Source: an uncultured Chloroflexota bacterium
Lineage (GTDB): Bacteria; Chloroflexota; Chloroflexia; Chloroflexales; Chloroflexaceae
Reading direction: 5' to 3'
Length of the DNA: 64,000 nucleotides
Assembly (NCBI GenBank): GCA_937120965.1
Contig: CAKZKA010000142.1
Span: 1-64,000 of the forward strand
Positions 19,434 through 52,951 of this stretch are shown here, piece after piece. A program made the position numbers and the translations under genes. Under the pieces are notes generated by a model. The model had not been told where the DNA came from and made no database searches. It saw nothing but the letters and a program-made list of their open reading frames with translations. Every line of letters begins with the position of its first letter. Within the stretch, counting starts at the first letter, position 1.

Positions 19434-19530
19434 ATACCATTTTAGATTTTGGATTGTGGATTGCCACGCCGGGCAGCACAACGCCTACAACCGCTTCAAG
19501 CAATGCGGCATCATCAACGGTAACTGGTAT
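19434..19530. repeat. TA-flanked MITE-like repeat, about 100 bp (copy a)
   Basis: This is one of six copies of an element that begins ATACCA and ends TGGTAT, with an AT-rich GATTTTGGATTGTGGATT segment and a core reading CCACGC(T/C)GGGCAGCACAAC. Its end touches the TAA stop of the neighbouring methyltransferase. It has no coding capacity. Other copies are at 34619, 35362, 43188, 47056 and 51584. Confidence 0.85.
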
Positions 19531-23014: not shown

Positions 23015-23118
23015 TCCGCGCGGGTCACGAGGGCGCGCGCGCAGCGCCTGCATGCAGGGAGGCTTCACGGATAGCGTCCTGGCGCGCCGCCTTCGGCGGT
23101 GGGGTGTGGGGCAGCTTC

Positions 23119-23312
23119 AGGGGCGGACAGAACGTATGGGCGCCGACGGGCGCTATGGCGTTGGGAGGCGCTGGTTGGCTCCCGCCCCCGGACCCGCTCC
23201 AGCTTCGCTGGAGAGCCTGCGCTGAGCCTGTCGAAGCGGGGAGACCAGAGCCACGCGCGGGGACGTTCCAGTGCGGTCCAGGCCATGTTGGCTCGGATGT
23301 TCTGTCCGCCCT
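23119..23312. repeat. GGGGCGGACAGAAC inverted-terminal-repeat element (copy A, short form)
   Basis: The element starts AGGGGCGGACAGAAC and ends with the inverted counterpart GTTCTGTCCGCCCT, 194 bp in all. It is non-coding. It lacks an internal segment of about 50 bp that is present in the copy at 27646-27890. Related copies are at 35231-35361 (partial) and 39316-39532 (opposite orientation). Confidence 0.85.
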
Positions 23313-23346
23313 TAAACCATGAGCAGCCCGGGGTTCGGGGTCTGGC

Positions 23347-26213: not shown

Positions 26214-26477
26214 ACGTCACTTGCGGAACTTCTCGCTACGTGGTAGGATCGGGCGTCTCTGACTGCCCGTGGGTGAGTATGTGTTTTGAGCCAACACGGT
26301 TTCGATGGGAGCCTTGCTCTCATGAGTTGAGCTATGCGGCGGGCCGCAGATGCTCACAGGCGGGCACCCACCTGCGCTCCGCAGGTTCGAAACAGGCTCA
26401 CTCACGGCATGTCGGGGACGATTACAGCGCCGAAGGGTAGGATGCTTCGGCGTACCGCCCCCCACGCCTCCAGCGCT
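26214..26477. other. Intergenic region with possible structured RNA
   Basis: The 264-bp gap before holA is free of the common palindromes. It contains self-complementary segments, for example GTGGGT near 26270 with ACCCAC near 26368, and CTGCG/CGCAG near 26372-26386. It also contains a T-loop-like string GGTTCGAAAC. No known RNA family could be assigned and no promoter stands out. Confidence 0.3.
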
Positions 26478-27600: not shown

Positions 27601-27645
27601 TCAGGAAGCCATGGCTGCAGCAAGCCCTCACCCCCGCGGAAGTTC

Positions 27646-27890
27646 AGGGGCGGACAGAACGTATGAGCGCCGACGGGCGGTATGGCGTTGGGATGCGCTG
27701 GTTGGTTCCCGCCCCCGGCGCCCTTCGACAGGCTCAGGCTTCGCCCTGAGGCTCAGCCCGAAGGGGCGGGCCTCTCCAGCTTCGCTGGAGAGCCTGCGCT
27801 GAGCCTGTCGAAGCGGGGAGACCAGAGCTATGCGCGAGGGCGTTCCAATGCGGTATAAGCCACGTTAGCCCGGATGTTCTGTCCGCCCCT
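27646..27890. repeat. GGGGCGGACAGAAC inverted-terminal-repeat element (copy B, full form)
   Basis: This is the most complete copy. AGGGGCGGACAGAAC at 27646-27660 is perfectly inverted as GTTCTGTCCGCCCCT at 27876-27890. The 245-bp body contains a hairpin of CTTCGACAGGCTCAGG type arms and a CTCCAGCTTCGCTGGAG palindrome. It encodes nothing and resembles a MITE. Confidence 0.88.
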
Positions 27891-28004
27891 AAACCCGCGG
27901 GCGAGGGGGGCCGGGAGGGTGAGGAGAAGACGCCGTGGCCCAAAAACATCTACCCGTGAAAGGATTTCCCCGCTCAATGTGGAGGCGCAATGCCCGATCG
28001 ACGG

Positions 28005-34618: not shown

Positions 34619-34722
34619 ATACCAATTACCGTTGATGATGCCGCATTGCTTGAAGTGGTTTCAGGGGTTGTGCTGCCCAGCGTGGCAATCTACAATCCAA
34701 AATCCAAAATCTAAAATGGTAT
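34619..34722. repeat. TA-flanked MITE-like repeat (copy b)
   Basis: The element runs ATACCAATTACCGTTGATGA to TGGTAT, 104 bp, in inverted orientation relative to copies at 19434 and 35362. It lies about 150 bp upstream of the thiamin-locus promoter. Confidence 0.88.
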
Positions 34723-34905: not shown

Positions 34906-34981
34906 CTATTGCAACCAAAACAAAACGAGGGTACCGTAACGGTCCCTGCGCATATATCCAGCGTCGCGCCTGACGCGCGGC

Positions 34982-35080
34982 GCCGCTAGGGGAGCCGGGA
35001 AGAGCCTGGCTGAGAGTGCGGCCCGACCGATGCCGCTGACCCTTTGAACCTGACCTGGGTTATACCAGCGTAGGAAAGCG
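34982..35080 (+). ncRNA. TPP (thiamin pyrophosphate) riboswitch
   Basis: The conserved THI-box elements are all present in order: GGGGAGCC, GGCTGAGAG (CTGAGA at 35010-35015), ACCCTTTGAACCTGA (35039-35053) and TATACCAGCGTAGGAAAG at the 3' end. This RNA binds thiamin pyrophosphate and shuts down downstream thiamin genes. It precedes thiW, ecfA, ecfT and tenA. thiW starts about 410 bp downstream, beyond two inserted repeats. Confidence 0.95.
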
Positions 35081-35092
35081 TCCAGAGGATGG

Positions 35093-35134
35093 CTGCCGCT
35101 GCGTACCCCGGACCAGCGGCAGTTCTGCTTCTGG
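35093..35134 (+). terminator. Possible expression-platform hairpin of the TPP riboswitch
   Basis: CTGCCGCTG (35093-35101) and CAGCGGCAG (35114-35122) form a perfect 9-bp stem, followed by TTCTGCTTCT. It may be the riboswitch terminator, although the T tract is weak. A strong AGGAGGTG ribosome site follows at about 35162-35170, with ATG 35175. GGTGC/GCACC arms flank that ATG. A frame from this ATG dies after 35 codons inside the repeat at 35231. Confidence 0.45.
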
Positions 35135-35230
35135 CGCCTCCTCGAGGCATTCACACGTGCATAGGAGGTGCCATATGGCTTTGCACCGGTTGTTTCCTCC
35201 CCTCGCCCCCCCTTCCCGTACACCTTTAAG

Positions 35231-35361
35231 CTGGTTGGTCCTCACCCCCGGCCCCCTTCGACAGGCTCAGGCTTCGCCCTGAGGCTCAGCCCGAAGGGGC
35301 GGGCCGCTCCAGCTTCGCTGGGAGACCAGAGCCGTGCGCGAGGGCGTTCCAATGCGGTATA
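35231..35361. repeat. Truncated GGGGCGGACAGAAC element (copy C)
   Basis: The sequence matches the interior of the 27646-27890 element (CTGGTTGG..., CTTCGACAGGCTCAGG, GGCGTTCCAATGCGGTATA) but lacks the left terminal repeat. At 35361 it is interrupted by the MITE-like repeat at 35362-35465. A few bases of its expected continuation (AAGCCA) reappear after that repeat. Confidence 0.82.
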
Positions 35362-35465
35362 ATACCATTTTTGATTTTAGATTTTGGATTGTGGATTGCT
35401 ACGCTGGGCAGCACAACGCCTGAAATCGCTTCAGGCAATGCGGCATCATCAACGGTAATTGGTAT
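35362..35465. repeat. TA-flanked MITE-like repeat nested in copy C (copy c)
   Basis: ATACCATTTTTGATTTTAG to AATTGGTAT, 104 bp, is inserted at GCGGTATA of the other element. The intact element at 27646-27890 has GCGGTATAAGCCA at this point. Here GCGGTATA and ATAAGCCA flank the repeat. That comparison defines an empty and a filled site with a TA-containing junction. Confidence 0.85.
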
Positions 35466-35491
35466 AAGCCATCTAGAATGGTAGGTGCACA

Positions 35492-36016
35492 ATGACTACT
35501 GTGACCTCGAATCTGCGCATGCAGACGCGCCAACTGGCCTACAGCGCGATCCTCACCGCCCTGGCCGTGGCCCTATCGCCAATCAGCATTCCAGTGGGGA
35601 TCGCTAAAATCTTCCCCATTCAGCACATGGTCAATGTTCTGGCCGCAGGGCTGGTCGGGCCGTGGTGGGGACTGGCGATCGCGATAACCACTTCGATTAT
35701 CCGCAACGTGCTGGGGCTGGGCACACCGCTGGCCTTTCCAGGCAGCATCTTCGGCGTGTTGCTGGCTGGCCTGGTCTACCGCTACACGCGCAATATCGCC
35801 CTGACGGCCCTTGGCGAGGTGATCGGCACCGGCGTTATCGGCGCGCTGGTGGGTGGGCTGGTGGTGGCGCCCTACATCATGAACCGCCCTATCGGTGTGA
35901 CGGCGCTGATCCTCCCCTTCGCGCTCTCGGCGCTGACCGGCGCGGCCCTGGGCGCCATCGGGTTGCTGCTGCTGCGACGCGCCGGGTACCTTGATCGCTC
36001 CGGGAAGGGCCAATGA
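35492..36016 (+). CDS. thiW: ECF transporter S component, ThiW (thiazole precursor)
   Basis: The 174-residue membrane protein has about five to six helices. It contains ALSPISIPVGIAKIFPIQHMVNVLAAG and LVGPWWGLAIAITTSIIRNVLGLGTPLAFPGSIFG, which are ThiW-family hallmarks. ThiW captures hydroxyethylthiazole-type precursors for an energy-coupling factor transporter. ATG 35492 has GGTAGGTG upstream. Its stop overlaps the ecfA start (ATGA). The TPP riboswitch upstream and tenA downstream support the thiamin assignment. Confidence 0.92.
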   Translation: MTTVTSNLRMQTRQLAYSAILTALAVALSPISIPVGIAKIFPIQHMVNVLAAGLVGPWWGLAIAITTSIIRNVLGLGTPLAFPGSIFGVLLAGLVYRYTRNIALTALGEVIGTGVIGALVGGLVVAPYIMNRPIGVTALILPFALSALTGAALGAIGLLLLRRAGYLDRSGKGQ

Positions 36017-39274: not shown

Positions 39275-39315
39275 GCGCCTCCAGGCAGATTCCCCACGCC
39301 CCTCCCTGTGGGTTT

Positions 39316-39532
39316 AAGGGCGGACCGAACATCCGAGCCAACGTGGCTTGTACCGCATTGGAACGCCCTCGCGCACGGCTCTGGTCTCCCCGCTTCGACA
39401 GGCTCAGGCTTCGCCCCTTCGGGCTGAGCCTCAGGGCGAAGCCTGAGCCTGTCGAAGGGGGCCGGGGGTGAGGACCAATCAGCATCCCAACGCCAGAACG
39501 CCCGTCGGCGCTCATACGTTCTGTCCGCCCCT
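39316..39532. repeat. GGGGCGGACAGAAC element (copy D, reverse orientation)
   Basis: AAGGGCGGACCGAAC at 39316-39330 is inverted as GTTCTGTCCGCCCCT at 39518-39532, 217 bp. The body reads as the reverse complement of the 27646 copy and includes both CTTCGACAGGCTCAGG hairpin arms. GGGGAAACC-type palindromes follow at about 39610 and 39680. No gene lies in 39275-39707. Confidence 0.87.
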
Positions 39533-39707
39533 GAATCCCTGTGGTGAGGGGCGTGGGCATAGAGACGCAGCGCCGCTGTGTCTCTACACGTTTCTGATGG
39601 GCAGGGCCTGGGAAAACCGGCTTTCTCCATCCCCCAACCGCTGGTGGGGGCGCCTGGCGCCCCGCCGGGCAGGGGCACGGGGAAACCCGATTTCCCCGAG
39701 GTTCGGC

Positions 39708-42547: not shown

Positions 42548-43187
42548 TACAGTTGCCTCAACACCACGGGTACAACACAGCATGTTCCTGAGAGGGCAGC
42601 GCCCTGCCGGACCCTCCCATCGGGCAGGGGATTGGAGAGGGGAGCTTCCCCGACTTGAGCACCGCGCTATAGTAACACTCCCGGCGCTCCAGCACCAGTG
42701 GCGGGCAACCCCCATCCGCTCCTGCCGCGCCGAGATGCGCGATCACCCCGCCGCGGGGGGATGGCCGCGATAGGCCCGCGGCCGCCGCCCCCGTCCCCAC
42801 GGGTACGCTGTGGGAATGGCATGCCGCGCCACGGTGCGCGGGCGCGCCGTGGGGAGCAACGTAGAGACGGCCCGGCGGGCCGTCTCCCCACACCGCCGTG
42901 GGAATGGCATGCATCGTCATGGCGCGCAGGCGCAGGAGCAGGCAGCGCGGGCCATACCGGGCGATGAGAGTCGAGACAGATCGCACCGGAACCGTCGTCT
43001 GGCGATGAGGGGACACGGGCAGGGTCGAAGCATACACCTCCAGGCATCGACCCGATCAGATCAGCGGATGGATAGGTGAATACTGTGGTGTAACACCCCG
43101 GTGCAGTTCCAGGCAATCTGTTCGTCGTTGCGCGGCGCAGGCGAATAGGGGCTAGAAGGCAAAGATACGGAGAAACCGGGATGACTT
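42548..43187. repeat. Repeat-filled intergenic region
   Basis: This 640-bp gap holds a GAGAGGGCAGCGCCCT-type repeat near 42590 and a block around 42805-42925. The block, with GGCATGCCGCGCCACGG and GACGGCCCGGCGGGCCGTC, is also found as a tandem repeat at 46880-47034. A short tail with AGAAACCGGG follows. No gene is supported. Confidence 0.65.
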
Positions 43188-43288
43188 ATACCAATTACCG
43201 TTGATAATGCCGCATTGCTTGAAGCGGTTTCAGGCGTTGTGCTGCCCAGCGTGGCAATCCAAAATCCAAAATCTAAAATCTAAAATAG
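43188..43288. repeat. TA-flanked MITE-like repeat at the 3' end of a STAS gene (copy d)
   Basis: The left end ATACCAATTACCGTTGATAA is intact. The right end, AATCTAAAATCTAAAATAGAT, has lost the terminal TGGTAT. Bases 43273-43288 are also the last codons and stop of the membrane STAS protein, on the opposite strand. Confidence 0.85.
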
Positions 43289-47055: not shown

Positions 47056-47159
47056 ATACCATGTTGGATTTTAGATTTTGGATTGTGGATTGCCACGCTG
47101 GGCAGCACAGCGCCTGAAACCGCTTTAAGCAATGCGGCATCATCAACCGTAATTGGTAT
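47056..47159. repeat. TA-flanked MITE-like repeat (copy e)
   Basis: The element runs ATACCATGTTGGATTTTAG to AATTGGTAT, 104 bp, just downstream of the SLC13 permease stop codon. Confidence 0.88.

Positions 47160-51583: not shown

Positions 51584-52951
<1,368 letters not shown>

Follow-up and report, generated by a model that had tools for sequence, protein, structure and literature searches.

In this work we describe two unrelated, non-autonomous DNA transposon families nested at a single site in the genome of an uncultured member of Chloroflexaceae. It is very probable that a 102-bp element was transposed into a fragment of a larger element, with duplication of a TNA target; this degree of confidence applies to nested transposition with TNA duplication and does not cover the assignment of the enzyme to the IS5/PIF type. 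The window, i.e. the whole 64,000-nucleotide stretch which was analysed, belongs to a 5.18-Mb draft genome of 307 contigs (G000), and its features are collected in Table 1.

Table 1. Coordinates of repeats, target duplications and neighbouring features in the window
Feature	Position	Strand	Basis or remark
Small element, 95 bp (one 7-bp unit fewer), TTA duplications	19435..19529	+	left-end search, copy comparison
Large element, 201-bp form	23116..23316	+	copy comparison
6S RNA gene	26253-26422		side observation
Decayed 10-bp duplication of large element, left copy, CCCGCGGAAG vs CCCGCGGGCG right of element	27633..27642	.	flank comparison, 8/10 identical
Large element, 251 bp, ends TTCAGGGGCGGACAGAAC / GTTCTGTCCGCCCCTAAA	27643..27893	+	end comparison; holds empty TAA
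Palindromic module CTTCGACAGGCTCAG...CTGAGCCTGTCGAAG inside large element	27723..27813	.	other copies (177-201 bp forms) lack it or have it shortened
Small element, second copy, TAA duplications	34620..34721	-	element search
TPP riboswitch aptamer	34978..35093	+	upstream of nested repeats
Interrupted large-element fragment	35230..35362, then GCCA 35468-35471	+	blastn match to 27697-27858
TAA target duplication, left copy	35360..35362	.	letters read directly; TNA rule across copies
Small element, 102 bp, TACCA...TGGTA	35363..35464	+	left end TACCA + four 7-bp repeats (35368-35395), right end GCGGCATCATCAACGGTAATTGGTA
TAA target duplication, right copy	35465..35467	.	letters read directly; TNA rule across copies
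thiW, S component of energy-coupling-factor transporter	35492..36016	+	downstream of nested repeats
Large element, reverse orientation	39299..39550	-	blastn
Small element, left end damaged	43185..43286	-	blastn
Small element, TCA duplications	47057..47158	+	copy comparison
Small element, TGA duplications	51585..51686	+	flank reading

The nesting can be read from a pair of sites. In the 27643-27893 copy of the large repeat the string GCGGTATAAGCCA is unbroken near 27850, with the empty target TAA at 27856-27858, while near 35354-35471 the order is GCGGTA, TAA, the 102-bp element (TACCA...TGGTA), TAA and GCCA, the letters being otherwise those of GCGGTATAAGCCA. The initial annotation had described the letters of this empty and filled pair correctly, and its conclusion that the small repeat had inserted itself into the larger is borne out. 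Its boundaries required revision: the nested unit is present, with 102 bp and TAA on both sides rather than 104 bp split at TA, and the larger repeat is real, with 251 bp and 19-bp inverted ends rather than 245 bp. The copy at 35231 turned out in blastn to be an internal fragment devoid of both terminal repeats. The target at this site, GGTATAAGCC, is a second one inside the large element, besides its end. With its clean paralogous empty site, the pair establishes how a large repeat family of Chloroflexaceae duplicates its target.

This rule was followed across the genome. Left and right TNA agreed in the letter N in every one of the 38 strict copies with both ends (11.6 expected), and duplicated flanks, which the initial annotation had proposed to look for, were found as identical TNA in 46 of the 49 copies from a 1.76-Mb genome sample, N being T in 19, A in 17, G in 7 and C in 6 cases. 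Among end pairs from an 861-kb sample, those whose N matched peaked at 95-103 bp (32 pairs, 27 of them exactly 102 bp apart), and a single pair in this range had mismatching N. For 18 of the 49 copies a paralogous empty site was matched in another repeat, several at 90-97% identity and with a single TNA. Several of these 18 matches represent one hot target, GGGGTAAGGCGTCACCCC, located in a third repeat family, in which the small element used one and the same TAA/TTA at five places or more (L131, L127, L104, L112 and L108).

Since N varies between the sites but agrees within one, the duplication is TNA and not TA, which contradicts the IS630/mariner-type MITE with TA duplication that the initial annotation had put forward. 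At this single site the A+T-rich target may be read as TA or TAA, and one IS630-type gene is indeed present in the genome; this sole gene, however, is a frameshifted PF13358 (DDE_3) remnant (L142, contig C128) without TACCA/TGGTA ends, and in the four other species of the genus there was no IS630-type hit. The small element thus shows neither a TA duplication nor a DDE_3 transposase with matching ends, so the search for an IS630/Tc1-type enzyme suggested earlier yielded this remnant only, and neither the TNA of the small element nor the 10 bp of the large one gives TA. We consider IS630-type transposition very improbable. Homologous or illegitimate recombination between repeats could be imagined in a genome so rich in repeats, the more so as the host copy is a truncated fragment, but at many unrelated places the ends and the 3-bp duplications are exact and the empty sites clean, which contradicts this reading and makes it hardly credible. 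The data give good support to transposition into TNA targets cut with a 3-base stagger.

The small element is not a chance string, as its left end occurs exactly 115 times in the genome and its right end 190 times with up to two mismatches, vs 0 for the reversed left end and 0 for the right-end control. The number of near-full copies, extrapolated from the 861-kb sample, is estimated at about 200-260. Identical sequences within different flanks were seen in at least 26 copies, which indicates recent spread. The element is short (102 bp), abundant (190 right ends) and without coding capacity, it is flanked by target site duplications (TNA, 46 of 49), and the 102-bp form has terminal inverted repeats, though only of about 8 bp and imperfect; the earlier view of both repeats as MITE-like and non-autonomous is supported. 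Six of 43 small copies in the 861-kb sample touch a large element, one of which (L113:13365) adjoins it and does not lie inside. Several small copies (L109, L113:14967, L126, L035, L044 and L052) had taken as target the TAA/TTA of GCCCTTAAAC, the end of the large element. On a Chloroflexi contig (L090) we also noticed large-element end sequences next to the right end of the small element, possibly a reverse nesting.

The two ends of the small element, TACCANTTNCNNTTGANNNTGCCGC, with outermost letters TACCA...TGGTA, are built differently. The right one is a conserved terminal repeat of about 30 bp, whereas of the left one no more than TACCA is kept, and phased 7-bp repeats (nnnnnGA) come after it. 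Among 11 representatives of three genera (g1, g16 and Viridilinea) all were exactly 102 bp long and had four nnnnnGA units after TACCA in nearly fixed phase. The 7-bp repeat differs in sequence between subfamilies: this genome has TTTTGGA, and Viridilinea has GTGACGA, TTGCAGA or TAGCCGA. The match reached 0.69 at lag 7 vs 0.28 in shuffles (maximum of 2000, 0.36), and 0.19-0.26 at other lags. Shorter copies of 95 and 88 bp have one or two 7-bp units fewer, and most of them keep intact TNA duplications. That three genera hold the length at 102 bp, or 102 minus multiples of 7, despite differing 7-bp sequences, suggests recognition of one end by spacing and not by sequence.

Relatives of the small element occur across Chloroflexaceae and form with it a superfamily with the end sequence TNATACCANTTNCNNTTGANNNTGCCGCAT. 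The same right end was found on contigs of Ca. Viridilinea mediisalina, Ca. Viridilinea halotolerans, Ca. Chloroploca and a Chloroflexi genome, with 235 right ends in G040 (Viridilinea), 36 in G039 and at most 10 elsewhere in the family; outside it a single match came from a further family of the order. The contigs sharing this end put the window in Chloroflexaceae or close to it. Judging from matching hits, G040 and the Viridilinea mediisalina genome are probably one and the same assembly. In Ca. Chloroploca, G006 and others, symmetrical relatives with TNA duplications have at either end a more or less conserved form of the repeat of about 30 bp, TACCANTTNCNNTTGANNNTGCCGCATTGT, and their length varies from 108 to 634 bp. 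In Ca. Chloroploca-type genomes (L292-L298) such relatives hold TGTCATGCTGAGCGCAGCGAAGCATCT-type palindromes as filler. The simplest history would start from a symmetrical element, of which one end gave way to the 7-bp repeat array. No literature on such repeats in Chloroflexales was found in the library searched, and viral contigs, phages and plasmids gave no useful match.

The large element has 19-bp terminal inverted repeats, TTYARGGGCGGACAGAAC and its inverse, and occurs in size classes near 177, 201 and 251 bp which differ by the palindromic core; about 300 copies are estimated for the genome from the 861-kb sample. A first test for a long duplication gave no signal and another one mixed lengths, and the 10-bp register was settled later: flank identity in this register was 0.66 vs 0.42 in shuffled pairs (z 9.6), and perfect 10-bp duplications exist, e.g. 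CCCCAGCGGG, CCCCGGCGGG and CAGGCAGGGG. Many targets are G+C-rich palindromes. The duplication falls within the 10-13 bp expected of the IS4 type. Because the small family makes 3-bp TNA and the large one 10-bp duplications, they need different transposases.

The nested repeats lie between a TPP aptamer and thiW, and the distance from aptamer to gene is about 400 bases. This position might hint that the small repeat is kept chiefly for a regulatory or structural function as RNA or DNA, and one Viridilinea subfamily folds strongly (z -4.2). The element of this genome and two other subfamilies, however, fold no better than shuffles (z -0.9, -1.4 and -0.75), so a conserved fold is not supported across subfamilies, and the insertion sites are various. 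A mainly regulatory or structural role therefore appears very improbable.

A transposase bounded by small-element ends was not found among PF01609, PF13359 and PF13586 genes of this genome or of element-rich relatives (drafts, contigs > about 2 kb). In this genome, on contigs of that size, neither PF13359 nor PF13586 was present, and PF01609 was represented by three genes, all of which were rejected as partners: an IS701 (L062) has its own ends, CTCTACTTTGTCAGTTC, and an IS4-like (L061) and an IS1182-like gene (L063) are truncated and without matching ends. The PF01609 and IS5/PIF-type (PF13359, PF13586) hits inspected in the draft genomes of relatives had other ends. End pairs 325-1274 bp apart in the own genome were dismissed as autonomous elements, being neighbouring copies or coincidences in genes, and the 634-bp relative in Ca. 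Chloroploca consists of repeats, with no evident gene. As all contigs read exceeded about 2 kb and a lone short IS contig could have dropped out of draft genomes, absence of the partner is not proven. Identification of the enzyme would be instructive, since the family has grown to about 200 copies in genomes almost devoid of intact transposase genes of the usual types.

In the proposed event, a transposase provided in trans would have recognised the ends TACCA...TGGTA, opened the TAA target in the large-element fragment by a cut with a 3-base stagger and placed the 102-bp element there, and gap filling would have left TAA on both sides of it. The enzyme probably binds mainly at the conserved right end of about 30 bp; at the left end it may require little beyond TACCA, with the phased repeats acting as spacer or weak binding array. 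The likeliest known kind of enzyme would be an IS5/PIF-Harbinger-like DDE transposase, to which we give about an even chance, judging from duplication length and sequence only. IS1031 makes a TNA duplication. For the PIF/Harbinger-IS5 group, 3-bp target site duplications of the TWA, ANT and TNA type were reported (PMC4482050), and the assignment follows from this likeness, the small element having a 3-bp duplication of just this kind.

Most of the remaining probability goes to another or unknown DDE enzyme. A DDE transposase outside IS5/PIF (IS3, IS30, IS982 or undescribed), possibly encoded away from any element, is a tentative alternative of considerable weight: IS4/IS5/PIF-type domains are nearly absent from G000 and Ca. 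Viridilinea mediisalina, both with about 200 copies, and the contigs of this genome end in short repeats and not in one common IS, but among the transposase families searched no candidate gene was found. A more particular possibility, which we hold to be unlikely, is an undescribed Chloroflexaceae system with unlike ends, a repeat of about 30 bp at one and TACCA plus spacing-conserved nnnnnGA at the other, whose enzyme would not be a common IS4, IS5, PIF or IS630 one and may come from a stand-alone gene.

Compared with known systems, the small element shares a short A+T-rich target with IS630/Tc1-mariner MITEs and differs from them in duplicating TNA instead of TA. MITEs of the IS4 group make 10-12-bp duplications. 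The large element resembles them in its 10-bp duplication, 19-bp inverted ends and several G+C-rich palindromic targets, and differs in that no transposase with its ends was found, the only IS4-like gene found in the draft genome (L061) being truncated and without large-element ends. With the PIF/Harbinger-IS5 (PHIS) elements, the NuwaII group especially (PMC4482050), and with the bacterial IS5 subgroups IS1031 and ISL2, the small element has in common a 3-bp duplication of TNA/ANT/TWA type, but no such transposase with small-element ends was found, and TACCA...TGGTA was not matched to a named IS. The BrickBuilt MITE of Porphyromonas gingivalis is, like the small element, a bacterial MITE with an internal tandem repeat; it has a 23-bp repeat and 19 copies in one strain (PMC4596501), whereas the small element has a 7-bp repeat beside one end, varying in sequence by subfamily and genus, and combines about 200 copies with a fixed length.
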